Positions 5,737 through 41,991 of a DNA stretch of 64,000 nucleotides are shown here, in pieces. Position 1 is the stretch's first letter, and every line of letters starts with the position of its first letter. Position numbers and translations under genes: made by a program. The notes below the pieces were generated by a model. It ran no database searches. It was not told where the DNA came from and worked only from the letters and a program-made list of their open reading frames with translations. This DNA is from Nocardia ninae NBRC 108245 (lineage in GTDB: Bacteria > Actinomycetota > Actinomycetes > Mycobacteriales > Mycobacteriaceae): the NCBI RefSeq assembly GCF_007990755.1, contig NZ_BJXA01000036.1, positions 1 through 64,000 on the forward strand, read 5' to 3'.

Positions 5737-6413
5737 CCTGGAAGCCCGGGGTGAACTTTTCCCAGGTCTGAATGGTTGGTGTCGGGCAACGCGAAGCCGG
5801 TTTGGCGCAGCAGTCTGCGCAGGTATGCGGTCAGCTCTACAGGTTGTAGGCCGTCGGTTGCGTCAGATGCAGCGGGTTCCATCAGCAGGTGGTGGATGAT
5901 GGCGCCGTTGAGCATGTCGAGCAGTATCTCGAGGTCGGCGGTCTGGGAGAGGATGCCGGCATCCTGGGCTTGTTGGAGCAGGACTCGCGAGCGTTCGCGC
6001 CGGGGCAGTACATGGTGGTGCCAGTAGGCGTTGAGCAGGGCCGGGTGGCTGGGTCCTGCTCCGAGCAGTCGTGCCGCGAGCAGGCGATACTTGGGGTCGG
6101 CGAGGGCCGCGCCCCAGTGGGGCAGCAAAGCTTCGATCAGGTCGGGTAGTGCCGTGGCAGCGATGCTCGTTGGCACGGGGGGAATGTCTGCGCGGGCCTG
6201 CTCGATGGATTGGGCCAGTAAGTCCTCCTTCGACTTCCACCGTTTGTAGACGGTGACCTTGGCGACTCCGGCGCGTTTGGCGATGGCTTCCATGCTGGTG
6301 TTGTCGATGCCGCGTTCGATGAGCAGGTCGGCGGCGGCGCGCAGGATGGCGGCGTCGGCGTTGGGATCGCGAGGGCGTCCCGGTCCTTCGCGTCGTGGCT
6401 TCTCTGTGCTCAT
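5697..6413 (-). CDS. TetR family transcriptional regulator
   Basis: DNA-binding repressor of the TetR family, 238 aa. After a basic leader (GPGRPRDP), residues ~18-62 form the TetR helix-turn-helix (MEAIAKRAGVAKVTVYKRW). The C-terminal ~150 residues form the helical ligand/dimer domain (TetR_C-like, with LEILLDMLNGAIIHHLL). The chosen ATG overlaps the stop of the upstream monooxygenase gene as ATGA, so both come from one mRNA. A longer frame upstream has no better start. The natural target is the 19-bp inverted repeat just upstream of the monooxygenase start, which would give autoregulation of the two-gene operon. The inducer is unknown but may be an aromatic or lipophilic substrate of the monooxygenase. 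Confidence 0.93.
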   Translation of the reverse strand: MSTEKPRREGPGRPRDPNADAAILRAAADLLIERGIDNTSMEAIAKRAGVAKVTVYKRWKSKEDLLAQSIEQARADIPPVPTSIAATALPDLIEALLPHWGAALADPKYRLLAARLLGAGPSHPALLNAYWHHHVLPRRERSRVLLQQAQDAGILSQTADLEILLDMLNGAIIHHLLMEPAASDATDGLQPVELTAYLRRLLRQTGFALPDTNHSDLGKVHPGLPGYEPLGGARPGPT

Positions 6414-7918
6414 GTCCTGATCCTGGAGTAGAGGGTGTCGGCGAACCACTTGTGTAGCGCATCCGGATCGTTACCGCGCCAGGCGAGGTGCCCGTCGGGA
6501 CGGGTCAGCGATGCGGGGTGCGGTGCGGTTGGGTCGGTCAACACTGTGAGGTTTGGGCCGAGATGCTTGCCTGCCACGCTTTCCAGCGCCGCGGTAGACG
6601 CGTCGGGGCGGGCCAGGAGCACCCAGTTGGGTTGCAGTTCGACAGCCAACGTGGTCGAACCGCCTTCACTGCGCATGCATTCGCGATCGGGTACGCGGTC
6701 CCCGGGGCGCGGCGCGGGGCCTCGACGGCTGCCCAGTGGGCCCTTCCGGTAGGTCACCCACAGCTGGGATGCGGTACGTGTCGCCTGCTGCTGCACCCTC
6801 GGGGAATTGAGAAGCGGGATGAAGATCCGGTCCCGCACGAAACGCGCCAGAATACCTTCTCCGACAAGAATTTTCGTGTTCGTGGTGGTGGTGCGGAGCA
6901 CGTCGGCGGCTAGTGGCCGCCGCTCGGCGGTGTAGGTGTCGAGCAGTTGCGCGTCCGCGCGACCGCCGACAACCAGGGCCAGTTTCCACGCCAGGTTCTC
7001 GGCATCACCGATTCCGGTGTTCATGCCCTGCCCGCCGATCGGGCTGTGGATGTGGGCAGCGTCGCCGGCGAGCAAGATGCGACCGGACCGGTAGTCCACG
7101 GCGAGTCTGCGGTGAATCCGGAACACCGACGTCCACACCGCTTCTCGGATACGCACCCCGTTCTCCCCGGCCCGTTCGGGCAGCAACTGCTCGAAGCGGG
7201 CGACGATTTCCGCGGCCGAAAGATGTCGATCCGCAGCTGGGATATCTGCCATGAGCCGCCACCGGTCGCCAGAATCGCCGTTGGCACGCATGGGAATAGC
7301 CAACAGCAGACCGCTGCGGTGATAGAAGCCCGCCGATGTGGAGCGGTCGCGGTCCCAATCGGCGTTCACATCGGCGAGCAGGAACTGCTCCACCACCGGC
7401 ACGCCGGGGAACTCGATTCCCGCGGCGCCGCGCACCACGCTGCGCGCTCCGTCGCAACCGACCAGCCAATCCGTTCGCAGTCGAGTCCCGTCCGCGAATT
7501 CCACCGTCATGCCGTCGGTGTCTTGGATCGCGGCGGTGACCGTCCGGCCCCATTCGATGTCCACACCCAGCTCGGTAAGCCGTCGCCGCAACTGTTCCTC
7601 GATCTGAGCTTGCGACACGAACAGTGCCTGCACCGACTCGCGGCCGTCCGGTGCGAACCGCATCGTCGCGAGAGGACGCGACCGCGCATACATCCGCATA
7701 CCGACCGGAGCCAACGACCTGTCCCGCAGATCACCCATCGCACCCAATCGCTGCAAAACCTCCACACCACGCGCGTGCAGGATATTCGCTCGCGATGTCA
7801 CCGCCGGACCGCTCATCGCGTCGACAACGCGAACCGCTACTCCTTGCGCGGCCAAGCCGCACGCCAGCACCAGCCCGGACGGGCCCGCTCCGACCACCAA
7901 TACAGCTGCTCGTTCCAT
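6410..7918 (-). CDS. FAD-dependent aromatic monooxygenase (PheA/TfdB-like)
   Basis: Class A flavoprotein monooxygenase, 502 aa, expected to hydroxylate an aromatic or polyketide-like substrate using FAD and NAD(P)H. Visible are the N-terminal dinucleotide motif (VVGAGPSGLVLACGLAAQG), the middle DG motif (WLVGCDGARSVVRG), and the FAD-ribityl motif (GRILLAGDAAHIHSPIGGQG). The C-terminal ~100 residues form the thioredoxin-like fold seen in phenol hydroxylase relatives. The ATG at 7918 is preferred over an in-frame ATG at 7936 because it has a GGGGTTGG ribosome-binding site and matches the family N-terminus (MERAAVLVVGAG). It is the first gene of an operon with the TetR gene. Substrate cannot be read from sequence; detoxification of a drug or plant phenolic is as likely as biosynthesis. 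Confidence 0.92.
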   Translation of the reverse strand: MERAAVLVVGAGPSGLVLACGLAAQGVAVRVVDAMSGPAVTSRANILHARGVEVLQRLGAMGDLRDRSLAPVGMRMYARSRPLATMRFAPDGRESVQALFVSQAQIEEQLRRRLTELGVDIEWGRTVTAAIQDTDGMTVEFADGTRLRTDWLVGCDGARSVVRGAAGIEFPGVPVVEQFLLADVNADWDRDRSTSAGFYHRSGLLLAIPMRANGDSGDRWRLMADIPAADRHLSAAEIVARFEQLLPERAGENGVRIREAVWTSVFRIHRRLAVDYRSGRILLAGDAAHIHSPIGGQGMNTGIGDAENLAWKLALVVGGRADAQLLDTYTAERRPLAADVLRTTTTNTKILVGEGILARFVRDRIFIPLLNSPRVQQQATRTASQLWVTYRKGPLGSRRGPAPRPGDRVPDRECMRSEGGSTTLAVELQPNWVLLARPDASTAALESVAGKHLGPNLTVLTDPTAPHPASLTRPDGHLAWRGNDPDALHKWFADTLYSRIRT

Positions 7919-7920
7919 TC

Positions 7921-7968
7921 CAACCCCAATTAGCATACGACTACGTTTGCGTATGCTAATTGGGGTTG
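7921..7968. promoter_or_regulatory. Perfect 19-bp inverted repeat, likely TetR operator
   Basis: Left arm CAACCCCAATTAGCATACG (7921-7939) and right arm 7950-7968 are exact reverse complements separated by 10 bases. The repeat abuts the monooxygenase start, so a bound repressor would cover the promoter and ribosome-binding site. The half-site TTAGCATACG has the look of a TetR-family operator. The long GGGGTTG flanks could also form an mRNA hairpin that hides the Shine-Dalgarno sequence. Confidence 0.7.
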
Positions 7969-8105
7969 AGGTTCTTGGTCAACCGGCTGAGGACAACCCT
8001 CTCCCTTGGGTATAGATGCACCCTCGTGGTGCGGAGTCGCTCCGGCCGGTGCGGTCTTCCGCACTATCGGCAGGTGATAGACGGTGAAGTGGTCGATCGA
8101 CGGCC

Positions 8106-8151
8106 GAGCCGGGTGTGCGTGCCGTGGTTTGCCGGCCCGCACACCCGGTTC
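8106..8151 (-). terminator. Hairpin terminator after the secreted-protein gene
   Basis: The arm CCGGGTGTGCG (8109-8119) pairs exactly with 8138-8148. The stem extends through a G-U pair to about 14 bp around an 18-base loop. It lies just past the stop of the minus-strand gene at 8160-8873. There is no U-run, which is usual for high-GC actinobacterial terminators. Confidence 0.55.
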
Positions 8152-8159
8152 TTATGGCA

Positions 8160-8873
8160 TCAGTGCCCGTGACCGCCGGTAAGTTCGCCGACCGTCACGG
8201 TGTCGCCGCAGGTGGATGAGGCGAAGTAGCCATCGAGATTGCCTTGCACGATGGTCTCGAACAGTGGCGTCGACTCGATCGCCAGCGCCTGCACCGACAG
8301 TGCGCCGGTCGCTGTCCGGGTCTGCTTGTTGAAGGTGACGTCGATCAGGCCCGGCACGCTGATCTTGAAGTTCGGCGGCGGGCTGGCCGGGATGTCGGTC
8401 TGCTTGCCGTTGATCGTCACGTGCGCCCCGGTGAGGCTACTGGTTGCCGTGGTGCCGGAAGCGTCTGCGCGGCAGCTGGATTCGAGCGAATCGGCGACAA
8501 TGGTGAGCACGCCGCCGGGCAGGTCGATGGACGGATGGACATGGAAGAGATCGATGCCGAGTTCGGTCAGTTTGGCCTTGGCCCAACTCGCGCCCGTCGT
8601 GCCGTCGCCATTCGAGTCCGATTCGCCGCCGCCGACCACGACCAGGTCATGGTGGGTGTCGACCAGCGAGGCATGGGTCGGGCCCTGCGGGTAAGCGGTG
8701 GTTCCGATCGGGCCGTGGTTGACGTCGTGGGCACTCAGGTACCAGCCGAATGCGGTGGACTGATGCTGGATCGCGGCTGCGGCCGGACCGGCGGTGGCGG
8801 CGAGAACGCCGGCCGTCGCGGCAAGACCGACGACGGTGGCGCCGACGCGCTTGGTGAAGGAAGCCGTCTTCAT
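8160..8873 (-). CDS. Secreted choice-of-anchor P-like protein
   Basis: Exported protein of 237 aa with a clear Sec signal peptide: basic MKTASFTKR, a hydrophobic stretch (VGATVVGLAATAGVLAA) and an Ala-rich cleavage region (AGPAAAA, about residue 33). The mature part has no membrane segment and no enzyme motif. It contains two widely spaced cysteines (SSCRAD, SSTCGD) and a His-rich C-terminus (GGHGH). The repeated hydrophobic/Gly pattern resembles actinobacterial proteins annotated as choice-of-anchor P, which is recognised from memory and not verified. It is monocistronic, with a hairpin after the stop and an inverted repeat upstream (8985-9002). Function unknown; a cell-surface or matrix role is plausible. 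Confidence 0.85.
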   Translation of the reverse strand: MKTASFTKRVGATVVGLAATAGVLAATAGPAAAAIQHQSTAFGWYLSAHDVNHGPIGTTAYPQGPTHASLVDTHHDLVVVGGGESDSNGDGTTGASWAKAKLTELGIDLFHVHPSIDLPGGVLTIVADSLESSCRADASGTTATSSLTGAHVTINGKQTDIPASPPPNFKISVPGLIDVTFNKQTRTATGALSVQALAIESTPLFETIVQGNLDGYFASSTCGDTVTVGELTGGHGH

Positions 8874-38632: not shown

Positions 38633-38962
38633 GGACAATGTCCTATCGGTGCCGCAGCTTTCGAGGGGCGGGCGTTCAGCGTGCCGGACTACCAACGCGG
38701 CTACGCCTGGGATTCGCAGCAGCGAACGGAGTTCCTAGAAGACCTCGAAATCCTTGGACCCAACCGTGAGCACTTCACCGGCTTGGTGGTACTGCACGAT
38801 CAGGGTGACAAGCTCGATTCTGAAGGTAAGAGCTACCGCGTCTATGACGTAGTGGACGGGCAACAACGGCTGACCACCATCGTGCTGCTTCTCGACGCAG
38901 TGCGGCGAGCTGGACAGACCCATGCCTCCAAGCTGCGGCGCTGCAATCAACCAGCTTCGTGA
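38633..38962 (+). pseudogene. Truncated DUF262 (GmrSD/ParB-like) gene fragment
   Basis: This frame encodes the N-terminal part of a DUF262 protein: GAAAFEGRAFSVPDYQRGYA followed by DVVDGQQRLTTIVLLLDAVR. These are the two conserved DUF262 motifs (PxYQRxYxW and DGQQRLTT), the nucleotide-binding region of GmrSD-type type IV restriction enzymes. Only ~95 residues remain of a normal ~550-700, and the stop comes 5 bp before the end of the convergent nuclease gene. The upstream part may continue in another frame (AALDNVL), indicating a frameshift. Confidence 0.75.
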
Positions 38963-38967
38963 CGTTG

Positions 38968-40152
38968 TCAGGGAGTGCTGACAGGCCAATAGCTCTTCGA
39001 TTGGAAGTACTGTGTTGCCGCGGGTGAAGCGTTGTAGTCCAGCAGGTTTCCGACTTTCTTCATCAACGTTTGACGTACTTCGTCAGGGGTCGCGAAGAAG
39101 AACTCGCGCCGGAGGTTCGCGTGGTTGAGCCGACGTGAACCGAACTCCTTGTGCAGCTCGTTTTCCAGCGAAACCGCGTCGTCGGAGAAGTACACGGCGT
39201 GTACATCGAAGGGGAATGGCACGGAGGCGCCGCCTAGTTCGCGAACTCTGTCCAGTGGTTCGAGTCGGCGCGTCAGTCCGATCTTGATCACGTTCGGGCC
39301 GAATGCGCCGATGTTGGAGATCACATAGACGTAGCCGGCACGAATGTTCGCGGCACGAAAGTCGTTGTGCGCGATTGCCTCGCCGATTCGGCTCAGCTGA
39401 GCCTCGATCTCCACGGTGTCCTGCCCCGAGGCTGTGAGCCGCGCGAGCACCGCCCGATAGTGTGCCTTTTCCTTGTCGAGTCGTTCCCGCTCTGCGGCGA
39501 GCTCTTGTTCGACCTTGCGTTGTTCGCGCAGTCGTTCTCGTTCTTCCCGCGCCGCTTCTCGCTCGTCCTGCACCTTCATCATGTAGTCGGCGGTGAGTTC
39601 GAGCTCCTGGATCCGCAGTCTGTGATAGTCGGGCGCTACGACCATCTGCATCGCCGCGCCTAGCTTCTCAATATCCTTGGCGGCCTTGTCGAGTCGCCGT
39701 TTGGCGGTGTCCAGGTTTCCGGCGCGGATGGTCCGAACGCAGTTCTCCGCTTCGGAGTTGTACGCCCGCAGCATGAGCTTGGACAGGTCGACGGTCAAAC
39801 GCCGGCCTTCGGCAAGGGAGTTGTTGAAACTGAACTTCTTCGCCACAACGATGGCTTCGCTCGTCCTGACAGCATCACGCACGGCGCCCCGCAGCTGCAT
39901 CAAAGCCAGTTTGTAGCATTCGGCATTCTCCAAGGGATGGTGATATTCATAGATCCCCACCTCCTGAAGGACCAAAGCGTCGTCTACCGTGATTACCCGA
40001 GGATCTGTCTGCGGCTGCGGGACTACTGGAGTTGTGGTGGTTAGGAGCTGTTCGCTCAGTTCTCGCACTCGATCTTGCAGATCGGCAGATTCTCGCTCCT
40101 TCACGACGAGCATCTTCCGCAACCCAACGATGACAGACTGCGGGTCGTTCAT
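38968..40152 (-). CDS. DUF4041 plus GIY-YIG nuclease (SNIPE-like)
   Basis: Putative phage-defence nuclease of 394 aa. Residues ~5-35 are helical, ~65-195 match DUF4041 (QEVGIYEYHHPLENAECYKL, EGRRLTVDLSKLMLRAYNSE), and ~195-235 form a charged coiled coil. Residues ~272-365 are a GIY-YIG/T5orf172 nuclease with GYVYVISN, KIGLTRR, Arg302 (LDRVREL), Glu330 and His334 (LENELHKEF), and Asn346/Glu350 (NLRREFFF). All catalytic positions of the fold are present. SNIPE of Escherichia coli has the same two domains and cleaves phage DNA during injection; that is known for the family, not shown here. No membrane helix is seen in this protein. The ATG overlaps the stop of the upstream gene (ATGA), making a two-gene operon. 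Confidence 0.92.
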   Translation of the reverse strand: MNDPQSVIVGLRKMLVVKERESADLQDRVRELSEQLLTTTTPVVPQPQTDPRVITVDDALVLQEVGIYEYHHPLENAECYKLALMQLRGAVRDAVRTSEAIVVAKKFSFNNSLAEGRRLTVDLSKLMLRAYNSEAENCVRTIRAGNLDTAKRRLDKAAKDIEKLGAAMQMVVAPDYHRLRIQELELTADYMMKVQDEREAAREERERLREQRKVEQELAAERERLDKEKAHYRAVLARLTASGQDTVEIEAQLSRIGEAIAHNDFRAANIRAGYVYVISNIGAFGPNVIKIGLTRRLEPLDRVRELGGASVPFPFDVHAVYFSDDAVSLENELHKEFGSRRLNHANLRREFFFATPDEVRQTLMKKVGNLLDYNASPAATQYFQSKSYWPVSTP

Positions 40153-41414
40153 CCACGCACCCCTTGAGTCGCCAGGGGCGCCAACCCATATGAGTTCTTT
40201 GAGACCGCAGAGGCCAAGTGGGCCAAAGTCGACGCAGGCTCCACTCGGGCAAGCTGGATTGCGAGGAACTCAGCCCGGTCGGTGGCCAGCTGGATGAGGT
40301 CTATGCGAGTGTCATGCCCGGTCGCGCTGTGAACGGCGTCGACTGCGACCGTGAGCGCGATGCTGTCGATAATTTCTTCCCGATCGGCTTCGAACACTTC
40401 GTGCGCCGTCCGCAAGGCGGTCTGCGCGATCGCAGACGCGTAACGCCGTTTCACTTCGGCGACCGGGAGGCTAGTCGAGGTGATCTCGTCGTTGGCCTTG
40501 TTGTAGCGGAAGGCTTTCGTCGTCGGCAACGTCTCGGGATCCGGAGCCAGAACGGTGATGTGGAGTTCACGATCGGCGGCGTTGAAAGCGTGCTCGTAGG
40601 CCACTTGGAAGGTTTCTGGATAGATCGAGTTGGCCAGCACGACACCGACGTACTCATCCATCGCGTCGGGTTGGCGCTCTAGAAGTCCTGCGATCAGTTT
40701 GTCCAAGCTCGCGTTCGAGTCCGCGGCTCCTTGCTGGAGCTCAGCATTCTCTCGCTGGTGACGTCTTCGAGCGTCCTCCAACTCCGCAGCACGTCTCCGC
40801 TCTTGCCGGCGCCAGCCGGCACGGAGCTCAGCGTTCAATTCGCATACATGAACCATGCTTTGCTCCCACTGGTGCACCAAGTGGAGGTATTCCTGTCGCG
40901 TCGCCGCCAACCGTGCGGCGTGCTTGCGATTTCCGCTCAACGCTCCGCTGAGACCCGTCGGCATTGCGGGCGGCACGAAAACTGGGCGGGTAGCTGAAAG
41001 GTGGTAGCGCGGCGGCGGAGTGGGTGGGAGCAAGTCTGGACGATCGAACGGAAGGTTCTCGGCCTGCTTGCGTAACGACTCCAGATCGACCCAGTCATCG
41101 ACATCCAGGGTTGCTTTGAGAAGGTTGTCGATCGCGTCATAGGTCATCGTCAGCTGGGCGTTCTTCTCCATGACCTCCGCTTCGCGAGCAGCTGTGTGCG
41201 CGGCTGTGGCAGCCTTGTCGGCCGCGGCCCGGTCGGCCGCCGACGCACGCATCGCCGCTGTCGCGAAGCGTTGTTGCTCCCTCGCGAACCGTTGTGCCTC
41301 GCGGACGGCCATGTTGTGCTCACGTGCCGACGCCCGCTGCTGCTGTGCCTGTCGTTGCTGCGCTAACCGCTGTTGATGCTGTAGCTCAGCGAAGAAACCC
41401 CTATGCCGCGTCAC
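40149..41414 (-). CDS. Coiled-coil partner protein with restriction-associated core domain
   Basis: Protein of 421 aa, first gene of the operon, starting at GTG 41414 (GAGAGGGCG upstream). Residues ~8-85 are a Gln/Arg/Ala-rich coiled coil and ~95-120 contain LLKATLDVDDWVDLESLRKQ. A Pro-rich linker (~125-150), a second helical coil (~165-235) and a globular part (~240-421) follow. The globular part includes EYVGVVLANSIYP, KAFRYNKANDEITSTSLPV, TALRTAHEVFEADREEIIDS and a GVRG end. The core resembles the N-terminal, non-catalytic part of actinobacterial restriction-system (Mrr-like) proteins, recognised from memory, but no nuclease domain follows. Translational coupling suggests it pairs with the DUF4041 nuclease as a sensor, scaffold or targeting subunit. 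No membrane helix is evident. Confidence 0.88.
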   Translation of the reverse strand: MTRHRGFFAELQHQQRLAQQRQAQQQRASAREHNMAVREAQRFAREQQRFATAAMRASAADRAAADKAATAAHTAAREAEVMEKNAQLTMTYDAIDNLLKATLDVDDWVDLESLRKQAENLPFDRPDLLPPTPPPRYHLSATRPVFVPPAMPTGLSGALSGNRKHAARLAATRQEYLHLVHQWEQSMVHVCELNAELRAGWRRQERRRAAELEDARRRHQRENAELQQGAADSNASLDKLIAGLLERQPDAMDEYVGVVLANSIYPETFQVAYEHAFNAADRELHITVLAPDPETLPTTKAFRYNKANDEITSTSLPVAEVKRRYASAIAQTALRTAHEVFEADREEIIDSIALTVAVDAVHSATGHDTRIDLIQLATDRAEFLAIQLARVEPASTLAHLASAVSKNSYGLAPLATQGVRG

Positions 41415-41544: not shown

Positions 41545-41991
41545 ATCATGCGCAGGAGGCCACGATTCGAGCAGGCTCCGCTCCTAGAGTTCGTTGACCG
41601 GGTGCGTCCAGCCACGCGGCACCAACAGTTCCAGCTGAATGATGGTGGCACCTTGTGCGGCGCACCATCATTCAGCGAAGTCCACCAGCGCCCGGCCGAG
41701 GCCGCTGCCTCGCTGTTCGGGCGCGCACACCAGCATGCCGAATTCGCCTATACCGTCGCTGAATTGCTGCACCCCGCACAGCCCCGGCGATCCGATCATT
41801 CGCACCGCGAGCCACGATGATTTCACTTGCTCGGATCAGCGATGCCAGCTCGGAACTTGTTGTGCGACTGTAACCGTCGCGCCAGATCCCATGTTCGGCC
41901 ACCGCGTACACACGGTTGACCAGTCCGGTCAGCTCCGCCACCAGCGCGACGTCGCCGCCGCCGCCACGGGGAGCACCTCGATGGACACCAT
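41545..41991 (-). pseudogene. GNAT acetyltransferase pseudogene
   Basis: A normal GNAT sequence can be read only across several frames: the start at ATG 41991 (VSIEVLPVAAA), then VAELTGLVNRVYAVAEHGIW (in frame from about 41940), then EFGMLVCAPEQRGSGLGRAL, then TIIQLELLVPRGWTHPVNEL. Between them are a one-base change in the GCG run near 41960, a frameshift near 41790, an in-frame TGA after DFAE, and a TAG near the C-terminus. At least two frameshifts and two stops make it clearly non-functional. It lies upstream of the nuclease operon. Confidence 0.8.

Follow-up and report, generated by a model that had tools for sequence, protein, structure and literature searches.

The 2026 description of SNIPE is of one membrane-bound protein encoded by a single gene (PMC13190303). 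In the model put forward in that account, the DUF4041 domain promotes DNA binding and probably contacts the phage tape measure protein, and the variable N-terminal region is proposed to serve both as an adapter for different phages and as an anchor (PMC13190303). SNIPE itself is therefore already known. The two-gene locus described here encodes a member of the family in protein B, and what is new is the two-gene form, in which B is accompanied by a protein, A, related to Mrr-type restriction enzymes. We found no two-subunit SNIPE with an Mrr-related partner in the literature searched.

The stretch of DNA analyzed here, referred to as the window, comprises the first 64 kb of its contig in a genome of 9.7 Mb. 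Genes A and B are both intact and overlap on the minus strand in the order A, B; both open reading frames lie where an initial annotation of this DNA had placed them, and the ATGA overlap by which that annotation considered them translationally coupled is present in the sequence (Table 1). We favor, at slightly better than even confidence, the reading of this locus as a two-subunit anti-phage system of the SNIPE type, in which B would be the nuclease and A a targeting or regulatory subunit. On this reading A would bind B and either target or restrain it, and the pair would block phage.

Table 1. Features of the A-B locus, in window positions; residue numbers are those of the encoded protein.
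Feature	Position	Strand	Description	Basis
Gene A	40149..41414	-	421 aa, GTG start	ORF list; PADLOC PDLC03663, 3.6e-33
Gene B	38968..40152	-	394 aa, ATG start; SNIPE/PD-lambda-1 homologue: DUF4041, coiled coil and GIY-YIG nuclease	
A/B stop/start overlap, ATGA	40149..40152	-		sequence
DUF4041 domain	39613..39780	-	B aa 125-180	PF13250, 6.9e-20, above Pfam cut-off
GIY-YIG nuclease domain	39064..39336	-	B aa 273-363	PF10544 and PF13455
Codon of E330	39163..39165	-	equivalent of E414 in E. coli SNIPE	
A residues 7-96	41127..41396	-	N-terminal helices/coiled coil, starting with conserved [KR]RGFFAEL motif	AlphaFold2 model, alignment
A residues 161-245	40680..40934	-	single 85-residue helix, least conserved (34% mean pairwise identity)	model, alignment
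A residues 246-421	40152..40679	-	alpha/beta domain, most conserved (54%), no Pfam family	model, alignment

Profile searches bear out the SNIPE architecture initially claimed for B. The DUF4041 call is upheld by its Pfam profile, the GIY-YIG region is matched above the cut-offs by two overlapping Pfam models at aa ~273-363 (T5orf172, 2.8e-15; MUG113, 1.8e-16), and the PADLOC profile PD-Lambda-1 matches B with an E-value of 4.4e-100. The catalytic residues are all present, as had been stated: the seven active-site positions Y274, Y276, K290, R295, E330, H334 and N346 are the same in all 90 paired homologues compared. In the alignment, E330 corresponds to E414 of a 500-aa protein annotated as PD-lambda-1 in phage record PV340555 (L177), where the Glu of SLEKKLH is residue 414, the same number as the catalytic residue in the SNIPE paper; mutation of E414 of E. 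coli SNIPE abolished defence in the published account (PMC13190303). By domain content B is a SNIPE-family nuclease, its activity being predicted. Like SNIPE/PD-lambda-1 of E. coli (PMC13190303, PMC9519451), it carries DUF4041, then a coiled coil and a GIY-YIG domain with the same catalytic residues. Unlike that system, the locus consists of two genes with partner A directly upstream, has no membrane helix, and leaves the N-terminal profile segment unmatched, the alignment of B starting at position 98 of the 491 positions of PD-Lambda-1.

The N-terminus of paired B proteins in the group of the window is a short coil. A regular expression for the motif F-[GN]-[AGVEP]-[KR] before DUF4041 matched 0 of 72 paired B proteins versus 12 of 16 unpaired SNIPEs. 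An NPPPGWP-type repeat is found at the N-terminus of 63 of 80 paired B proteins and of several unpaired SNIPEs, conserved there as NPPPGWPxPPxGWxPPxGWxPDPxWP; a Pfam scan of two proteins (L062, L066) reported no family for the repeat.

What says most about the role of A is its kinship with Mrr-type restriction enzymes, on which the initial annotation was silent. The PADLOC mREase_IV profile (PDLC03663) matches A over positions 13-380 of 544, a region that includes the conserved alpha/beta domain, and the N-terminal motif of A is also present in some mREase_IV/Mrr members. Unlike those enzymes, A ends before the Mrr_cat domain, and its nuclease would be the GIY-YIG protein encoded next door. 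Searches with Pfam profiles returned no family for A, Mrr_cat included, and those with NCBIfam no match of weight. Since Mrr_cat is absent from A and was confirmed by Pfam (PF04471) in five of five longer homologues scanned, A is not classed as a restriction enzyme; judged from its sequence, it is a standalone protein homologous to the portion of Mrr-type (mREase_IV) enzymes that is not catalytic.

Relatives of A occur at 48 places in 43 of the 296 genomes sampled from the class of the window. Nine of these places encode standalone proteins of ~420 residues like A, and 36 of the other 39 run on into an Mrr-like nuclease just past the A region, as seen in 20 of the 21 inspected by eye and in 16 of the 18 compared by tblastn. 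The exceptions are L022, which stops early, L195, which has neither Mrr nor B, and L212, a marginal match in which tblastn found neither A nor Mrr; at L205 tblastn found the Mrr part only. L195 (G088:C1:182000-185500) is a distant relative with 32% identity, from the same genome as the partnerless standalone A described below, and the fetched stretch showed no Mrr part and no SNIPE gene. In a sample of 98 genomes of the genus, five further longer relatives (L082-L086) likewise have an Mrr-like part at their end, and L087 is a degenerate relative with stops. One of the A-Mrr enzymes (L010 1426-3803) is followed 2 bases on by a gene for a DarT-type DNA ADP-ribosyltransferase (1.7e-55).

PADLOC labels the profile in which A falls 'Type IV methyl-directed restriction enzyme', which could be taken to mean that A recognizes modified bases or DNA structure and that B merely cuts, phage injection proteins being uninvolved. 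We consider such type IV-like restriction improbable, because the label is an annotation and no test of the family of A, and because B retains DUF4041, the domain that in the published account of SNIPE promotes DNA binding and probably touches the tape measure protein (PMC13190303).

The partner had also been described as a large helical protein. The AlphaFold2 model of whole A (mean pLDDT 88.8) does contain coiled-coil helices, a proline-rich middle and an 85-residue helix, but its last ~170 residues are modelled as a confident alpha/beta domain, and thus A is predicted to be helical in part rather than throughout. Residues 232-421 modelled alone reach a pLDDT of 93.0 and a pTM of 0.86. The alignments used for the structures had 76 and 73 rows, and fold searches with the A models gave no confident PDB fold match. 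A is less conserved than B, with a mean identity of 48% versus 65% for the B core.

In order to determine how strict and how wide the pairing is, we searched 84,980 species, each represented by one genome, with an A-only query and found 132 A relatives. The query comprised 13 sequences, 12 of which came from paired loci and the other from an orphan, and therefore leans to the paired form. In all of the best 80 of these 132, a DUF4041/GIY-YIG gene adjoins A on its downstream side or, in one case (L154), shares its open reading frame. This natural fusion, from a Chromatiales bacterium from Bugula neritina (5857-8286), is 810 aa long and carries both profiles in one ORF. With starts of B chosen mechanically, the 4-base overlap of the window recurs in 55 of the 80 loci, and B starts within -8 to +7 bases of the A stop in 70 and 14-66 bases past it in 7; the remaining three are two loci in which the mechanical pick found no good B start codon and the fusion. 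Damaged copies among the best 80 of the 132 have a stop in A (L093, L098), a frameshifted B (L093) or a short B (L137), and in L099 and L115 the contig ends within B.

Among standalone A loci that can be aligned to the paired form, A was paired with B at eight of nine in the class sample and at five of five in the genus sample, the locus of the window included. At the ninth class-sample locus, L008, a gene for a DDE_Tnp_4 transposase (2.3e-20) lies ~340 bases downstream. From the side of B, the class sample contains 24 near-full-length places, eight of which have A alongside (58-64% identity to B, or the window itself), and the other 16, at 40-54% identity, have no A in the fetched flank of ~1.5 kb. 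The genus sample shows five paired places at 57-100% identity and ten unpaired places at 42-46%, together with three more fragments. A and B thus co-occur as a unit, as had been anticipated. By record title, the best 80 of the 132 comprise 60 actinobacterial loci, 18 from other phyla, including Planctomycetota, Pseudomonadota and further phyla, and 2 without a name. Most of the 18 are MAGs; the pair of Planctomycetes Pla163 lies on a complete chromosome and that of Aliidiomarina maris comes from a named strain. The initial suggestion of an actinobacterial variant therefore holds with regard to the pairing but not with regard to its restriction to actinobacteria: the pair is a two-subunit SNIPE variant, with predicted association of the subunits, and is not confined to that phylum.

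The genome of the window encodes a second SNIPE (L077 7440-8840; G000:C28); it has no adjoining A, carries an N-terminal DUF2510 and is 44% identical to B. SNIPE homologues are also encoded in Mycobacterium phage Mask (L178 2332-4008, likewise with DUF2510) and in Corynebacterium phages (hits H57-H62), and A was not found in any phage record searched.

In a quick tree of 107 B cores, built by maximum likelihood, the 90 paired rows lie on one side of a branch with an SH-aLRT support of 87. On the other side are 17 unpaired rows, consisting of actinobacterial SNIPEs, a mycobacteriophage SNIPE and the SNIPE of E. coli. The tree left out L053 (frameshifted), viral rows without B, and L079-L081, which are the same loci as L089, L088 and L164 (the sequence of L080 lies without a mismatch inside L088, Nocardia pseudovaccinii NZ_BDBY01000423); L061 and L109, which are one locus, were both kept. 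The paired B proteins accordingly form one clade, with moderate support and 17 unpaired rows sampled. Distances between A proteins and between B proteins are correlated (r 0.835; Mantel test on 72 loci, with 0 of 2000 permutations as high), which is expected of any linked, co-inherited gene pair and is no sign of binding. This test used 72 of the 80 loci, leaving out the fusion, L137 for its short B, L093 and L098 for the stop in A, and four near-duplicates. A tree of A with 118 rows, obtained after the same row filter, splits standalone from Mrr-fused A by a single branch with support 100, and the orphan L008 groups with standalone A.

Because published SNIPE is a single gene (PMC13190303), B alone might be an ordinary SNIPE and A an independent passenger, or the pair might serve a role other than defence. 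Strict pairing in 80 of 80 loci (best 80 of 132) across several phyla, tight coupling, the fusion and the single paired clade make this very improbable. Several points nevertheless count against the subunit model: the partnerless A relatives L008 and L195, the broken copies, and the 16 of 24 SNIPEs of the class sample that do without A.

Neither protein contains a detectable membrane helix, as the initial annotation had noted: the highest 19-residue hydropathy mean is 1.24 in A and 1.22 in B, compared with 3.37 in the PV340555 protein used as a positive control. None of the 80 paired B proteins has a peak of 1.6 or more (E. coli SNIPE, 3.37), and 3 of 79 A proteins, in mechanically cut reading frames, reach 1.6-1.72. 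The absence of a helix had been read as a departure from the membrane-bound SNIPE model. The absence itself stands, but it is no mark of the A-B pair, since 15 of 16 sampled unpaired actinobacterial SNIPEs also lack a helix (one has a clear one), as do 34% of published SNIPE homologues, the other 66% being reported to have an N-terminal anchoring helix (PMC13190303).

What keeps a soluble nuclease of this family from the host chromosome is pertinent here, as E. coli SNIPE without its membrane helix is reported to be toxic (PMC13190303). A could chiefly be a restrainer, an antitoxin-like or autoinhibitory protein that silences a soluble, chromosome-toxic SNIPE nuclease and is displaced on infection, with target choice residing wholly in DUF4041. 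This fits the toxicity caused by deletion of the helix (PMC13190303), the lack of any hydropathy peak of 1.6 or more among the 80 paired B proteins, and the gene order, in which A is translated ahead of B and in most cases overlaps it. However, the 15 unpaired actinobacterial SNIPEs without a helix manage without A, and a module that is covalently fused to Mrr nucleases, and in one natural case to B, is unlike a releasable antitoxin. We therefore consider restraint as the chief role of A unlikely, if worth keeping in mind.

In the two-subunit reading that we favor, B would act as the nuclease: by analogy with E. coli SNIPE, its DUF4041 domain would grip DNA and phage injection proteins, and its GIY-YIG domain would cut incoming phage DNA. 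A, which may be derived from the recognition half of enzymes of the Mrr type or have a common ancestor with it, would stand in for an N-terminal segment that in other actinobacterial SNIPEs is part of the protein itself. Made first, it could capture B during translation of the latter, hold the soluble nuclease away from the host chromosome, and recognize some feature of the entering phage DNA or of its injection complex. Targeting and restraint supplied by A in trans is the simplest reading, because the paired clade lacks part of the N-terminal region and has A present; in the natural fusion, A occupies precisely that N-terminal position. That A is common to Mrr enzymes suggests that it recognizes foreign DNA or its delivery.

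A broader possibility, to which we give somewhat less than even odds, is that A serves as a plug-in module for recognition and has been joined to two nuclease folds unrelated to each other, being fused to Mrr (PD-(D/E)xK) in one case and, in the other, acting as a subunit encoded apart from a GIY-YIG SNIPE. If this were true, both systems would read the same foreign-DNA signal, and swapping A would transfer specificity. The adapter role proposed for the SNIPE N-terminus seems here to have passed to a conserved protein of its own, which corresponds to the front part of Mrr-type enzymes. The pair may thus offer a handle both on how anchorless SNIPEs avoid cutting host DNA and on what the uncharacterized front part of the mREase_IV family recognizes. 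One unpaired SNIPE (L041 1492-3399) has an N-terminal TerD domain and one A-Mrr protein (L023 1099-3153) a C-terminal one; this accessory domain is drawn on by both families.

We also examined the genomic neighborhood of the pair. IS3 and GmrSD-like remnants had been reported around the locus of the window; the latter were found and the former were not. A GmrSD_N (DUF262) fragment at 38681-38959 on the plus strand (PF03235, 6e-22) runs toward the end of B, and it is a remnant on the other strand which, although it adjoins the operon, lies outside the A-B unit. IS3 left no match to PF00665 (rve) on the contig or to PF13276 (HTH_21) in the genome at E <= 0.001, and 31 six-frame ORFs from the flanks gave nothing beyond GmrSD_N and a weak GNAT fragment. 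In the 135 ORFs scanned, out of 143 picked as nearest to the 80 loci, no Pfam family occurs more than three times; the unit therefore seems to consist of A and B alone. PADLOC profiles, run on the same 135 ORFs with no control run, matched 64 families at E <= 1e-10; the 25 shown, among them IetS, Qat, AbiE and methyltransferases, have one member each and are scattered. The defence-island setting initially proposed is thus weakly indicated, by the GmrSD_N fragment beside the locus and otherwise by scattered, uncontrolled PADLOC matches. The GNAT-like fragment lies at 41671-41835 on the minus strand and is apparently broken (Acetyltransf_7, 9.6e-5, below the Pfam cut-off). Another A-B pair is encoded on a Kocuria rosea plasmid (L179 3738-9062), near DUF262 and HEPN genes.
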